From Chloroflexota bacterium (lineage in GTDB: Bacteria > Chloroflexota > Limnocylindria > Limnocylindrales > CSP1-4): a DNA stretch of 34,285 nucleotides. Positions within the stretch are counted from its first letter, which is position 1. Every line of letters begins with the position of its first letter. The position numbers and the translations under genes were made by a program. The notes beneath the pieces are model-generated. The model was given only the letters and a program-made list of their open reading frames with translations. It made no database searches and was not told the DNA's origin. This document shows, piece after piece, positions 24,904 through 31,415 of this stretch. Location: positions 1 to 34,285 of the forward strand of contig VBGT01000011.1 of assembly GCA_005889475.1 (NCBI GenBank). Direction: 5' to 3'.

Positions 24904-26577
24904 TCAGACCGGCGCGGACACCCAGTTGGGGAGCTCCTGCGCGATGGTCGCGAGCGGCATCGAGCCATGGCCCAGGAGCTGGTCGTGGAACTCGCGCAGA
25001 TCGAACGCGGCCCCGTCGCGCGCGCCGATCTCGCGCCGCAGGCGCTCGATCTCGCGCTGGCCGGTCTTGTACGTGAGCGCCTGGGCGGGCCAGGCGATGT
25101 AGCGGTCGGTCTCGATGACCGCGTCGGTCTCGGTCAGGCCCGCCGAGAGCAGCAGGTCGATCGACTGCTGGCGCGTCCAGCGCAGCTCATGCATGCCGGT
25201 GTCGACGACGAGGCGCGCGGCCCGCCACGCCTGCGCGTCCAGCATCCCGAAGCGCTCCGCCTCGTTTCGATACAGGCCCATCTCGTCGGCGAGGCGCTCG
25301 GCATACAGGCCCCAGCCCTCGACGTACGCGCCGCCGGCGTAGCGCGCGGCGAAGCGCCGGAAGCGGTTCAGCGACTGATTCTCGCTCTCGAGCGAGATCT
25401 GGAAGTGGTGGCCCGGAATCGCCTCGTGGTAGGTCGTCGAGGCGAGGCGCGAGTACGTCCGCGAGGGCAGGTCGAACGTGTTGACGTAGTACGTCCCGGG
25501 GCGGGTCGTGTCGGCCGACGGCGGGTAGTAGTACGCGAACGGCGCGTCGCGCTCCTTGTACTCCTCGACCGGGATCACCACGCAGCCCGACCGCGGGATC
25601 CGCCGAAACATCGACGGCGCCTTCGCGAGGGCGCGGTCGATGTCCTCGACGGCACGCGCGATCAGGGTGTCGCGCGAGGCCGGCACATTCGCCGGATCCG
25701 AGGCGAGGGCCGCGCGATAGCCGGTCGTGTCGTCGCCGAAGCCCGCGCCGCGGGCGATGGCCCGCCGCTCCGACTCGATGGCCTCGAGCTCGTCGAGCCC
25801 GATCTCGTGGACCTTGCGCGGCTCGAGCTGGAGGGTCGTCCAGCGCAGGATCTGCGTCCCGTACAGCGTCTCGCCGTTCGGCGCCGACCAGAGCCCATTC
25901 TTGGTGCGGCTGGCCGCGAGGTAGTCGCCCTGCAGCGCCTCGAGGAATGCCGCGTCGGCGGGATAGACCTCGTCCCGGACGACGGCGCGAATCGCCTCGC
26001 GATCCTCGTCGCGCGCCACGCGGATGAGCGAGGGCACGACGGCCTCGTCGATGGGCGTCGCGAGCATGCGCTGGAGCTGGGCGATCGTGCGCTCGGCGAC
26101 GATGCGTGGCGCAGTCAGGCCGCTCGCCCTGGCCTCGCGGAGTAGCTCGCGGTTGTCGGCCATGTACTGGGGATAGGCGTGCAGCCGGGCCAGGAACAGC
26201 TCGAGCCGCTCGGGCGTGTCCGCGGCCTGGAACTGGCACAGCTGGGGCAGCATCGTCTGGGGGCCGCCCATCTGGTCGACGACCTGGAGCGTGTCGATCC
26301 GCTGGTCGTCCTGGACCAGGAAGATCGCGCCGATCACGCGTAGGACATCGCGCGTGATCCTGTCCTCGACCGACAGGCCATCGTCGGGGATGGCCAGCGC
26401 GGCATCGCGCATGTCCTGTGCCAGCTGCCGGCGCTTCGCCCGGCCGGCGGGACTGGGGTCGGGCAGCCGGTCGTCGTAGCGCGTGTCGCCGTTGATCGTG
26501 GCGCTGATCGGGCTGACCTCGAGGAACCGCTCCCAGAAGCCATCGGCAAGCTGGTCGATCGCGGAGGGCTCGGGCAC
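24904..26577 (-). CDS. DUF885 family protein (putative metallopeptidase-like)
   Basis: TYHEAIPGHHFQISLE with AYVEGWGLYAERLADEMGLY, characteristic of DUF885; TACCCT-N7-GTG upstream. Confidence 0.88.
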   Translation of the reverse strand: MPEPSAIDQLADGFWERFLEVSPISATINGDTRYDDRLPDPSPAGRAKRRQLAQDMRDAALAIPDDGLSVEDRITRDVLRVIGAIFLVQDDQRIDTLQVVDQMGGPQTMLPQLCQFQAADTPERLELFLARLHAYPQYMADNRELLREARASGLTAPRIVAERTIAQLQRMLATPIDEAVVPSLIRVARDEDREAIRAVVRDEVYPADAAFLEALQGDYLAASRTKNGLWSAPNGETLYGTQILRWTTLQLEPRKVHEIGLDELEAIESERRAIARGAGFGDDTTGYRAALASDPANVPASRDTLIARAVEDIDRALAKAPSMFRRIPRSGCVVIPVEEYKERDAPFAYYYPPSADTTRPGTYYVNTFDLPSRTYSRLASTTYHEAIPGHHFQISLESENQSLNRFRRFAARYAGGAYVEGWGLYAERLADEMGLYRNEAERFGMLDAQAWRAARLVVDTGMHELRWTRQQSIDLLLSAGLTETDAVIETDRYIAWPAQALTYKTGQREIERLRREIGARDGAAFDLREFHDQLLGHGSMPLATIAQELPNWVSAPV

Positions 26578-26582
26578 GGCGG

Positions 26583-29324
26583 CTAGGGTAGCGCCTTCGG
26601 CAGCTCGAAAAGTCCGAGCTGCTCGGCCCGCCGCTCGATCGCAGGGTCGAGGCCGAGATACGGCTCGAGGGCCGCCAGGTCGGGCGGCTCACGCTCGAGC
26701 CAGGCGCGCAGGTGCGGCCAGAGCACGACGTGCCAGTTGCCGGTCTCCATCGCGGCCCGCAGCACCGGCGACGACTCGAGCTTGTGCCGGGCCAGCTCGC
26801 GCCGCTCCGGGGCGAGGACGAGGAAGCGGACGATCCGCTCGTTCGCCGGGATCCGGGCATGGCGCCGCAGCAGGACGTCGCCGAGCATCGCCGTCCATTC
26901 GACCTCGAACAGCAGCGCCGAACCGCCGCGCTGGTACCAGATGCAGTCGACCGCCTCGCCGTCCTCCTTCGGAACGAGCGAAGTGGTGGGGAACCACGGC
27001 TCGCGCTCCCGGTGTGGATCGAGGAAGTCGGCGAGCGTGCGATCGCCGATCCGCCGTGCCTGCTCGCGGCGCCCGAGCCAGACGCGCATGCCGAGGCGAT
27101 GGCCGCCGTTGGCGAGGTGGGCCAGAAGCTCAGTGTGCTCGGCGGTCCGGCGCCGGAGATCCTCGCCGGTGATCAGCCGGCCCCCGGTAGAGGCGGGGCT
27201 GCGGTAGCTCGTCAGGCAGGCGCGGACGAGGGTCTCGTCGGGCAGGTCGTGTCCCGGGAAGAGTGAAGCAACGCGCTCGAAGAACGCGGTCTCGGCGATC
27301 GGGCCGGCGGTCGACAGGAGGCTGTACACCGCCCACTCGACCCGATCCGCGAGCGGAATCGACGCGGCCTCGCGTTCGGAGCGCTCGCCGAGCCACCAGC
27401 GACCGGGCTCGATCTCCTCCACGCGGTGCTGGTCCGAGCGACCGAGCTCCTCGTTGACGAGGGCGAGCACGCGCTCGACGGGGTCGCGCGACGGCGCCGG
27501 CCGGGTGAACGTGCGCGTCCTCGTGAACGACCGGCCGGCGGCGCCGATCGCGGCCTCGGTCGCCGTGCCGAGCATGCCCGGGCCGGCATCGAACGCCGGT
27601 CCCTCGTCGGGCGCGGGCTCGGCCGGCTCCTCGAGCGCCTCGCTGGCGAGCAGCCGGCGCAGCTGCCCGACGCGGTCGAGGCCGACGAGGATCTCGCCCA
27701 GCAGCCGCTCGTAGCGCGCCGGCTCGCCCCTCGCTCGGAGCACCTCGACCGCCGTGTCCATGACCGTCGTTGCCGCCTCGCGCGCCGAGAAGGGCCGAGC
27801 CTCGATGTGCTCCGGTGGCGCGAACAGTCCCGGCCCGGGTACGAGCTCGGGATCGCCCCGGCCGCCGCTCGCCTCGAGCGGGATGTTGCTCCGCGTCCTC
27901 GGCCCGGGCGGCAGCACGCCACCAGGCGGAACCAGCTCGACGACGCCGCCGACCTCGTCGTCGGGATCGCTGAGCCGCGCCTCGACGAGCCGGTAGCCGG
28001 CCCCGACGCCGCCGAGCACGGCGGCGACGAGCGCCTCGGGCCCGCCGTGGTCGAGCAGGATGATCGCCCGCGCGTCGCGGGCGAGATGCGGCGAGACAGC
28101 CTCGAGCGAGCGCCGCAGGGCGGCGGCCTGCCACGACCACGGCGCCCGGATCGCCGGCCCGAGCAACGGCTCCAGCGGGAGCAATGCCGCGGCCTCGCGC
28201 CCCAGCGCCCACGCCGTGCCGTGGTACGCCATCCCCAGCCGCTCCTGGCTGAACCGCGGCGGCGGCTGCCCGAGCACGAGGCGAATCCGCGGTCCCGCCC
28301 CGGCATCCCGCACCTCGTCGACGAGGCGCTCGAGGGCGCCCGGCGTCATGACCCGGACGATCGCGTTGTTGGAGCCCTCGACCAGGCTGCGCAGGTCCGT
28401 GCCGAATCTCGCCTCCAGCCCGGCGAGCGGGCCGCTCTCGAGCCGCTGCACGAAGCCTCGAACCTGCCGGTAGCCGTCCTCGAACGCGAGCCATGGGTTG
28501 CGCTCCCGCCAGCGCTCCGGGATCGGGCTGCGGACGGTCCCGCCGGCGATGCGCAGATTGGGCATCCGCCCGCCGCCGAGCCCGAGCCGGCTCGCGGGCA
28601 GGACCGCGTGGAGGAACGCGAGCCGAAGCGCGGACTCGATCGGCGCGGCACGCAGCTCGCCCTCCACGCGGGCGAGAATCGCCGCGAGCCCGACGAGCTG
28701 CCGATCCGTGTGCAGCCGCAGGATTGCGTCGACCAGCCCATCTCCCCCGTCGGGCACCGGGAAGCGCTCCCGCAGCCTCACCCGGACGTCGTCCGCGCCG
28801 ACGTCGCTCGTCGCTCGGTCCATGTCCATGGGGCCGGGCTCGACCGCCTGGTGCTCGGGCCGGTTCTGCTGATCGCGGCACAGCTGGCAGCGGTAGTGCA
28901 CGCGGGCCGGCTGCTCGCCCTGCCATTCGACCTCCTCGACCGGGAGCGTGCGGCCGCACGACCCGCAGCGGGTCGCGAACAGGTCGGTGATGAACAGGCG
29001 CAGGCTCGTGTCGCCGTGGGGCGACGTCCCGAGCGTCGAGAATGCGGCATCGAGGTGGCGCAGGTCGGGCGGCCGGAGCACCACCTCGGCGAGCAGCCGG
29101 GTCAGCGGCCCGGTCTCGAGGCTGAAGCCGCGACGCTGCCGATCGACCGCCGCCCGGGCGATCCAGCCGCCGCGTCCGTGCAGGTCGGCGACGATGTCGC
29201 CCGGCGCGGAGTTCGCCTCGAGCCGGGCGTGGACGAGGTCGGGCGGGGGCGGCGGCGCGAGCCGTTCGTAGGCGGGCAGGGTGAACCCGGGTTCCGCCCG
29301 TGAGAGGAGCAGCCTCCCGACCAT
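26583..29324 (-). CDS. Degenerate DNA-methylase-like protein with Zn finger, winged-helix-like segment and PD-(D/E)XK-like C-terminus
   Basis: Start MVGRLLLSRAEPGFTLPAYERL. SAM-motif-like PGDIVADLHGRGGWIARAAVDRQRRGFSLETGPLTRLLAEVVLRPPD; CGSCGR...YRCQLC; LGQPPPRFSQERLG at the motif IV position, then ALRRSLEAVSPHLARDARAIILLDH; C-terminal VDCIWYQRGGSALLFEVEWTAMLGDVLLRRH...RFLVLAPERRELARHKLE. Confidence 0.7.
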   Translation of the reverse strand: MVGRLLLSRAEPGFTLPAYERLAPPPPPDLVHARLEANSAPGDIVADLHGRGGWIARAAVDRQRRGFSLETGPLTRLLAEVVLRPPDLRHLDAAFSTLGTSPHGDTSLRLFITDLFATRCGSCGRTLPVEEVEWQGEQPARVHYRCQLCRDQQNRPEHQAVEPGPMDMDRATSDVGADDVRVRLRERFPVPDGGDGLVDAILRLHTDRQLVGLAAILARVEGELRAAPIESALRLAFLHAVLPASRLGLGGGRMPNLRIAGGTVRSPIPERWRERNPWLAFEDGYRQVRGFVQRLESGPLAGLEARFGTDLRSLVEGSNNAIVRVMTPGALERLVDEVRDAGAGPRIRLVLGQPPPRFSQERLGMAYHGTAWALGREAAALLPLEPLLGPAIRAPWSWQAAALRRSLEAVSPHLARDARAIILLDHGGPEALVAAVLGGVGAGYRLVEARLSDPDDEVGGVVELVPPGGVLPPGPRTRSNIPLEASGGRGDPELVPGPGLFAPPEHIEARPFSAREAATTVMDTAVEVLRARGEPARYERLLGEILVGLDRVGQLRRLLASEALEEPAEPAPDEGPAFDAGPGMLGTATEAAIGAAGRSFTRTRTFTRPAPSRDPVERVLALVNEELGRSDQHRVEEIEPGRWWLGERSEREAASIPLADRVEWAVYSLLSTAGPIAETAFFERVASLFPGHDLPDETLVRACLTSYRSPASTGGRLITGEDLRRRTAEHTELLAHLANGGHRLGMRVWLGRREQARRIGDRTLADFLDPHREREPWFPTTSLVPKEDGEAVDCIWYQRGGSALLFEVEWTAMLGDVLLRRHARIPANERIVRFLVLAPERRELARHKLESSPVLRAAMETGNWHVVLWPHLRAWLEREPPDLAALEPYLGLDPAIERRAEQLGLFELPKALP

Positions 29325-29368: not shown

Positions 29369-30313
29369 ATGACGACCATCGAACGATCACCGATCGACCT
29401 GCCCGCGGCGCTCACCTCCACAACGAGCCCCAGCCTGCCCGGCTCGACCCTGCGCGCCAGGGCGGCGCTCGCGGACGCCTCGGCCGACTACCTGGCGATC
29501 CCCGACTCGGCGCTCCTTCGAACGTGGCTATTCCGTGGCATCGACACCGAAGACGGCGTGCGCTACGGCATCTATCGCGGCGCCGAGACCGTCGAGGCGG
29601 CCTCAGCCGAGCTCGTGGCGGCCCTCGCGGGAGCTCGGGCGCGCGCGGCGGCCACCATTCGCACCGCGCCGGCGACGATCGCGCGCTGGGCGCTCCAGGG
29701 CCGGCTCGCGGCGCTCGGCGACGACGTGCTCGATCGTGTGGCCAAGGAGGGCGAGTGGACCGTACGCGAGACGCTGGCGCACACGATCGCCGGCCAGCGC
29801 AGCTACGGCTGGTTCTCGCGCTGGTGGCTGTCGCAGCCGCTCGGTCCGGATCGACCGAGCCGCGTCCCCGACGAGGTCGACACCCAGTCCCAGCGGGAAC
29901 TGCCGTCAGACGAGGCCGAGGGCCGGGGCTCGCTCGCCGACATCCGGTCCCGCCTCGACGCGGTGCTCGACGAGTGGGCGCTGCGTTACGCGAACCTGGA
30001 CTCGGTGGCGCTCGGCCTCCCGGCGAGGTGGGCCGGCGTCCCCGGCGACATCGACTTCCGGCTCGGTCGATGGGCGTCGCACATCGCCGAGCACACGGTC
30101 CAGCTCGACAAGACGCTTGCCTGGCTGGGCTATGAGCCCTCCGAAGCCGCACGGATCGTTCGAGACCTGTACACGGCCTGGGGCAGGCTGGAGGCGCAGG
30201 TCTTTCCGGTCGCGCCAGCCGGTACGGAGGGTGCGGTCGACTCCATCCTCGAGCGCATGGCGGCGACGCTCGTCAGCGAGGCGCGCGACGTTCGCGAGGC
30301 CGCCGGCGCGTAG
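29369..30313 (+). CDS. DinB/DUF664-like four-helix protein
   Basis: EGEWTVRETLAHTIAGQRSYGWF...FRLGRWASHIAEHTVQLDKTLAWLG, a DinB-like His pattern; TACGCT-N6-ATG with TTGTGG 17 bp upstream of it. Confidence 0.7.
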   Translation: MTTIERSPIDLPAALTSTTSPSLPGSTLRARAALADASADYLAIPDSALLRTWLFRGIDTEDGVRYGIYRGAETVEAASAELVAALAGARARAAATIRTAPATIARWALQGRLAALGDDVLDRVAKEGEWTVRETLAHTIAGQRSYGWFSRWWLSQPLGPDRPSRVPDEVDTQSQRELPSDEAEGRGSLADIRSRLDAVLDEWALRYANLDSVALGLPARWAGVPGDIDFRLGRWASHIAEHTVQLDKTLAWLGYEPSEAARIVRDLYTAWGRLEAQVFPVAPAGTEGAVDSILERMAATLVSEARDVREAAGA

Positions 30314-30557: not shown

Positions 30558-31415
30558 TTAGGTCTCTTCGACCTCGTCCGTCTCCTCGACGAACGCCTCG
30601 TCCGTCGTGTCCTCCGGCGGGATGACGCTCTCGAGGTCAGTGATCTCCTCGTCCTCGACGTCGTCCTCGAGATCCTCGTCGAGCTCCTCGTCCTCGCGCA
30701 GGAGCGTGCCCTTGGTGTAGGGCCGGAGGTCGGTGGACTTGGCCGCCGTCGGGAAGCTGACCTTCCCGTAGTTGCGCGGGTCCTGGTAGACCTCGCGGAT
30801 GATGATCCGCACATCCTGCGCGCCGAGCGAGGTGACGCCGGCAAGGTACTTGTTGCCGTCGGCGATGAGCTTCAGCAGGCGCGCGGCGACACGCGGCTCG
30901 ACGACCCCGATGCGCATGCCGTTGCTGATCGCCATCAGCTTGTTGCCCTCGGGCGAGAGCTCGACCGAGTCGCCCGGGTTGACCTGGGCGAGCTTCTTCG
31001 CGTCGGGCAGCTCGATGAGGTGAGCGAAGCCGGTCTTGCCCGTCTCCTCGACGAAGATGCGGACCGGCGCCTTGCTGCCCTCCTGCGCCGCCACGGTCTT
31101 CTCGCCGGCCGCGACGAGGAGCGTGCGCAGGCGGTCGATGTTGCGCTCGGCGATGCGGTTCGTCGGGTCGAGGGCGAGCGCGGCCTGGTAGTGCTCGCGG
31201 GCGGAGCCCAACTCGCCCAGCTCCCACAGCGCCTTCGCGAGGCGGTTCTCGGCCTCAGCCTCGGCGCCCATCTCCAGGAGCTTGCGGTTCGTGTCGGCGG
31301 CGTCCGACCACTGCCCGGCGGCAGCCTGCGCGATCGCCTGCTCCGCCAGCTGGCGCTTGACGCGCGTCGCGGCGGCCGGGCTGCTGGCGGTCGCGTCGGT
31401 CTCGGGGAAGGTCAC
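30558..31415 (-). CDS. TPR-containing protein with C-terminal acidic tail
   Basis: LAKALWELGELGSAREHYQAALALDPTNRIAERNIDRLRTLL (TPR) then VRIFVEETGKTGFAHLIEL...GMRIGVVEPRVAARLLKLIADGNKYLAGVT and acidic C-terminus; GTG start. Confidence 0.8.
   Translation of the reverse strand: MTFPETDATASSPAAATRVKRQLAEQAIAQAAAGQWSDAADTNRKLLEMGAEAEAENRLAKALWELGELGSAREHYQAALALDPTNRIAERNIDRLRTLLVAAGEKTVAAQEGSKAPVRIFVEETGKTGFAHLIELPDAKKLAQVNPGDSVELSPEGNKLMAISNGMRIGVVEPRVAARLLKLIADGNKYLAGVTSLGAQDVRIIIREVYQDPRNYGKVSFPTAAKSTDLRPYTKGTLLREDEELDEDLEDDVEDEEITDLESVIPPEDTTDEAFVEETDEVEET

Follow-up and report, generated by a model that had tools for sequence, protein, structure and literature searches.

The gene and its neighbours

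We analysed a stretch of 34,285 nucleotides from a Chloroflexota bacterium of the class Limnocylindria (contig VBGT01000011.1), hereafter the window. The target gene (26583..29324 (-)) starts with an ATG at 29324, ends with a stop codon at 26583-26585 and contains no internal stops. It encodes a protein of 913 aa, which we describe as a clamp-tethered pseudo-methyltransferase/nuclease-like protein, the clamp tether being predicted. The AlphaFold2 model of the whole protein reached a mean pLDDT of 89.1 and a pTM of 0.88. Since the family is carried by 59 of 61 relatives (genus to class), homolog pairs show dN/dS values of 0.07-0.27 and the model is confident, the open reading frame is real and beyond chance. 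Single-sequence searches of Pfam, NCBIfam and the PDB with the protein returned no usable relative, and Pfam scans did not find a DUF1156 match, the mark of the COG1743/DUF1156 zinc-ribbon adenine methylases. The protein is previously undescribed and represents a Chloroflexota family. All the segments, motif positions and the zinc finger named by an initial annotation of this DNA are present in the 913-aa frame.

As that annotation had stated, a DUF885 gene (PF05960, E=2.3e-148) lies 5 bp downstream of the target stop codon, beginning at 26577. The DUF885 and aminotransferase neighbours are kept solely inside the order. PolX is frequently found near the target gene in loci of the class, and it is the only repair protein among the gene neighbours, in the class only. 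At the loci of two other host families (f8 and f39; the window belongs to f1), the target is accompanied by genes for penicillin-binding protein, amylase and cyclase. PADLOC models gave no match to the window neighbours that were tested.

Twenty class loci, the window among them (30558-31415 (-)), have a gene for a TPR protein upstream of the target on the same strand. Its product has a conserved C-terminal domain of ~110 aa and an acidic tail, occurs in most Chloroflexota and, in the class, adjoins both the target and PolX. This gene was considered as an obligate partner and rejected: because it is common in the phylum without the target, and its f8 and f39 matches are weak and at TPR level, it is no dependable partner. 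Between the TPR gene and the target lies a divergent gene of the DinB_2 superfamily (29369-30313 (+)), whose site holds other insertions or nothing in other loci.

Domains of the protein

The first part of the protein (residues 17-115; 28980..29276 (-)) has a methyltransferase fold according to profile alignment to RsrI and 2ZIE and to the AlphaFold2 model, and covers beta1 with the motif I position and the acidic residue of motif II. Residues 46-54 read ADLHGRGGW, within which the family alignment and the comparison with an intact methylase mark DLHGRGGW (residues 47-54; 29163..29186 (-)) as a degenerate motif I. The motif IV position falls in LVLGQPPPRF (residues 349-358). Here QPPP (residues 353-356; 28257..28268 (-)) stands in place of the [DNS]PP[YFW] of amino-methyltransferases and aligns with the TSPPY of an intact paralog. 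The family profile around motif I aligned with RsrI (E=1.4e-4) and 2ZIE (E=1.8e-4), and the QPP site aligned with their DPPY/SPPY at a sub-threshold level. A Foldseek search of the PDB with the full model retrieved mostly class I methyltransferases, including CcrM, all with E >= 0.027. The best match in the viral library was a Pandoravirus DNA methyltransferase (N4-cytosine; E=5.8e-5). These matches agree with the degenerate methyltransferase that the initial annotation had proposed.

The decay extends across the family, as that annotation had suspected. Canonical motif IV is found in 0/72 homologs, its forms being QPPP, QAPL, SPPP, APPP, RPPY, DPPR, ALPRPN, or absent, and the catalytic D/N/S and the aromatic residue never occur together in any homolog. 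Among the same 72 homologs, motif I of the DP[FW]xGxG type is restricted to f4, as DPW[AS]GTGW; the loop is gone in f2 and f8, and the glycine-rich GRGG loop and the motif II Glu (SLE/TLE) are still present in most f1 members, which may therefore still bind SAM. The matching positions of L057, a methylase of the window genome that served as positive control, read DPFSGRGT and TSPPY. Judged by its sequence, the N-terminal half is a DNA methyltransferase fold with decayed motifs I and IV.

Compared with amino-type DNA methyltransferases (RsrI, 2ZIE, CcrM, PF01555), the fold and the motif I region are recognisable in the target, but its motif IV is decayed in every homolog and its motif I in most, and it adds large zinc-finger and C-terminal parts and a clamp motif. 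The methylase L057 (PADLOC MTase_II, E=1.9e-38) places motif I before motif IV, as the target does, with local similarity at E=8e-4; unlike the target, it has intact motifs, is 447 aa long and lacks the zinc finger and the C-terminal domains. In another genome, one open frame (L101:1347-4406, genome G262) begins with a methylase-like segment (DPFGGNGTT, TEPPF; PF01555, E=1.1e-12) and continues into an oxidoreductase segment that holds an Fe-S binding domain of the dihydroorotate-dehydrogenase-B type; it is either a fusion or a frame artefact.

A four-cysteine zinc finger (C120/C123/C146/C149, C-x2-C...C-x2-C; 28878..28967 (-)) is invariant in all 72 homologs across the phylum. Conservation and the AlphaFold2 model define a helical region at residues 500-565 (27630..27827 (-)), with a near-invariant RGEP (532-535). 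The winged-helix-like region (residues 613-718; 27171..27488 (-)) was delimited by the secondary structure of the model, conservation and a dN/dS of 0.10. It contains DRVEWAVYSLL at residues 660-670, of which D660, R661 and E663 are near-invariant. The winged helix named by the initial annotation is putative: it agrees with the secondary structure of the model, and no library match confirms it.

The last domain is restriction-enzyme-like and putatively PD-(D/E)XK-like (residues 719-900; 26625..27170 (-)), on the evidence of PADLOC, the AlphaFold2 model and Foldseek. In the model (pLDDT 90.5 for this domain), a helix is followed by a strand, a strand with D793, a strand with E807-V808-E809, a helix and a strand, an order that fits the alpha-beta-beta-beta-alpha-beta core of the PD-(D/E)XK superfamily. 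The shared-residue alignment gives D793 (26946..26948 (-)) as a putative first metal ligand and E807-V808-E809 (26898..26906 (-)) as a putative E-x-E replacing (D/E)-x-K, both within the segment VDCIWYQRGGSALLFEVEWTAM at residues 792-813. BamHI is a known E-x-E case. The sole consistent library match was the PADLOC model REase_II (PDLC03534), found for 24 of 47 members and for the window protein at E=3.1e-4. Foldseek with the C-terminal domain gave nothing below E=0.001, and its weak top ranks were rich in PD-(D/E)XK enzymes (SfsA, XPF, EndoMS in third place, Cdn1, MUS81, EcoO109I, MspJI). The structure search proposed by the initial annotation recovered methyltransferases for the full model and a list rich in PD-(D/E)XK enzymes for the C-terminal domain, both at weak E-values. 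The D...E-x-E core that it had read is a putative catalytic signature; by sequence, the domain shows kinship with a type II restriction-enzyme family, and its topology resembles that of PD-(D/E)XK enzymes. Families f1, f4, f13, f21 and f29 retain the E-x-E, and f2, f3/f5, f8, f39, f60, f61 and f77 have lost it. Since the site is lost in f2, f3, f5, f8 and f39, nuclease activity is not the universal function of the family.

The same domain was also found fused to EVE, a modified-base reader, in L106:1299-2432 (G138) and L105:1781-2923 (G232), the former matching PADLOC REase_II at E=3.4e-15. These two proteins and PDLC03534 have D...FE[VI]E...R in common with the target's C-terminal domain. Unlike the target, L105 and L106 consist of EVE and the nuclease-like domain in ~380 aa, without a methylase part, and they are candidate modification-dependent restriction enzymes.

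Distribution and inheritance in the Chloroflexota

We searched a phylum sample of 399 Chloroflexota genomes (61 of the class and 338 others) and found the target in 60/61 Limnocylindria genomes; the exception, G031, gave a weak match alone (E=3.7e-6). The distant family f8 has matches in 54 of 59 genomes, almost all at one locus. The weakest matches of the phylum search are probably generic methylases. The gene is single-copy and is retained even in genomes of 1.1 Mb. A quick tree required 12 label changes over 13 families, the smallest possible number, and thus follows the host families; f1 is paraphyletic to the long-branched f2. The dN/dS values of homolog pairs indicate purifying selection. 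For the window protein and that of G003, most folded regions gave dN/dS values of 0.10-0.22, with higher values in the zinc-finger region (0.43) and the linker (0.64). Near-universal presence, a tree that follows families and low dN/dS together show that the target is a vertically inherited, constrained core gene.

The f2 proteins, from 1.1-Mb genomes (L031-L043), stand on a very long branch of 3.3 changes per site. They no longer have either catalytic site or the canonical clamp motif, and the dN/dS of close pairs is still ~0.2.

The C-terminal tail and possible functions

The initial annotation did not mention the tail of the protein, where QLGLF (residues 902-906; 26607..26621 (-)) matches the consensus QLxLF for binding the beta sliding clamp. 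This consensus, a C-terminal QLxLF or QL(S/D)LF, is that of clamp-binding proteins such as Pol IV, MutS, MutL and transposases, which have the same C-terminal peptide as the target and unrelated bodies (PMC4549789, PMC9690074). Q902 is present in 136/138 homologs, among them members of lineages in which both catalytic sites are decayed. The strict motif is present in 115/140 homologs, often as the final five residues, and persists though overall identity is 20-30%. Against a background of other genes and ORFs from the target-bearing loci, the strict pattern occurred near the C-terminus in 27/41 targets, compared with 0/360 other conserved genes and 2/3867 ORFs. The tail has low pLDDT in the AlphaFold2 model, as expected of a flexible docking peptide. 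Y-family polymerases (DinB, ImuB-like) of target-bearing genomes carry similar motifs: QLGMF and QLPLF in the window genome (G000), QIALF and QLSLF in G025, QLTLF in G059 and QLELW in G404. The gene dnaN was found in every genome checked, that of the window genome lying at G000:C22:27732-28841. The clamp motif itself is conserved in sequence, and from it we infer that the tail docks the protein on DnaN. This tail is the most informative element of the protein and points to replication-coupled DNA maintenance.

We therefore favour, with a probability of about 0.6, a clamp-tethered, DNA-binding pseudo-methyltransferase with a part in the replication-coupled maintenance or repair of DNA. Its ancestor would have been an amino-type DNA methyltransferase that became a conserved housekeeping protein of the Chloroflexota. 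The methyltransferase fold with the inserted zinc finger would serve as a DNA-binding scaffold that has lost methylation, followed by the winged-helix-like region and the restriction-enzyme-like domain. The flexible QLxLF peptide would dock on DnaN and so bring the protein to newly replicated DNA, where it may act in maintenance or repair. Cutting may be possible where D...E-x-E is intact, as in f1 (the family of the window), f4 and a few other lineages; in lineages with a decayed site the protein would be a binding platform. Clamp binding, DNA binding, any cleavage and the repair role are what we infer for a protein whose sequences hold decayed methylase motifs, a zinc finger, a nuclease-like signature and a clamp motif, under purifying selection and vertical inheritance. 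Against this reading stand the weaker tails of f2 (QLDLS/A) and f3/f5 (QLxFxW, e.g. QLAFKW), the loss of the nuclease site in several families, the C-terminal domain's lack of a Foldseek match below E=0.001, possible SAM binding in f1, and a gene neighbourhood in which PolX, in the class, is the only repair gene.

A more specific role in mismatch repair was also considered. MutS1 was found in 0/61 class genomes, compared with 327/338 other Chloroflexota, and MutL in 0/16 class genomes tested, compared with 11/11 others. We found no convincing NucS in class genomes, where NucS_C matches were short and weak and MutS2-like matches were present; NucS_C (PF01939) had no match in the window genome and none to the target protein. 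Very few organisms are without both mismatch-repair pathways (PMC8228993). Because the class lacks MutS1, MutL and a convincing NucS, the protein is a candidate substitute: it could be an alternative mismatch-repair endonuclease of Limnocylindria, replacing MutS-MutL as NucS does in Actinobacteria. The methylase-fold/zinc-finger part would sense errors, the clamp motif would give access to the fork, and the D...E-x-E domain, intact in f1 and f4, would cut. EndoMS/NucS is a clamp-bound nuclease with a PD-(D/E)XK-type catalytic domain and a C-terminal clamp motif (PMC8228993), and EndoMS ranked among the weak Foldseek matches. The likeness is one of way of working only, since in the target a methylase part replaces the NucS N-domain and E-x-E replaces a K-containing site. 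However, the intact nuclease site does not track MutS loss: f2, f3 and f5 of the MutS-less class are without E-x-E, and f13, f21 and f29 keep it despite having MutS1 and MutL. A simple replacement of MutS by the nuclease was rejected on this pattern. The protein is also older than the loss of MutS, and we regard a mismatch-repair role as unlikely.

It is rather improbable that the protein is a sequence-specific DNA-binding regulator or nucleoid protein with an incidental clamp motif. After the tail, the best conserved parts are indeed the zinc finger, the winged-helix-like region and the RGEP and DRxE motifs, and both catalytic sites are dispensable; a motif so conserved at such low overall identity, and so rare in other genes, is hard to call incidental. 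We also doubt strongly that the protein is a still-active, divergent SAM-dependent methyltransferase with non-canonical motifs. The persistent GRGG loop and motif II Glu of most f1 members and the near-canonical motif I of f4 (DPWAGTGW) would suit such an enzyme, but motif IV is never canonical, with its two key residues never together, and f2 and f8 have no motif I loop. Least probable is a restriction or anti-phage protein whose dead methylase reads modified or unmodified DNA while the C-terminal domain cuts invaders: in its favour are the type II restriction enzyme model that this domain matches and the domain's fusion to EVE elsewhere, but the gene is near-universal, single-copy, tracks host taxonomy, persists in 1.1-Mb genomes, lies among housekeeping genes, with no PADLOC match to the window neighbours tested, and has lost its catalytic site in many lineages while conserving the clamp motif.

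The initial annotation had suggested a novel defence or repair design. A defence system was rejected on the near-universal, vertical distribution and the housekeeping context, with no sign of the defence-island context that it had proposed to check. The repair half of the proposal is more plausible, because of the beta-clamp-binding tail. With this docking tag at its C-terminus, the protein more likely serves DNA replication or repair than defence against phages.

Among the core proteins of these soil and freshwater bacteria, the target is a large one, and neither Pfam nor NCBIfam has a family that it matches. It offers a concrete test candidate in a bacterial class without MutS1 and MutL; if the mismatch-repair role were true, a retired restriction-modification enzyme would have supplied the parts for a third clamp-bound mismatch-repair pathway of independent origin. 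A methylase-nuclease architecture that loses both active sites, yet keeps its zinc finger and clamp-docking peptide, suggests that restriction-modification parts were domesticated for replication-linked work.
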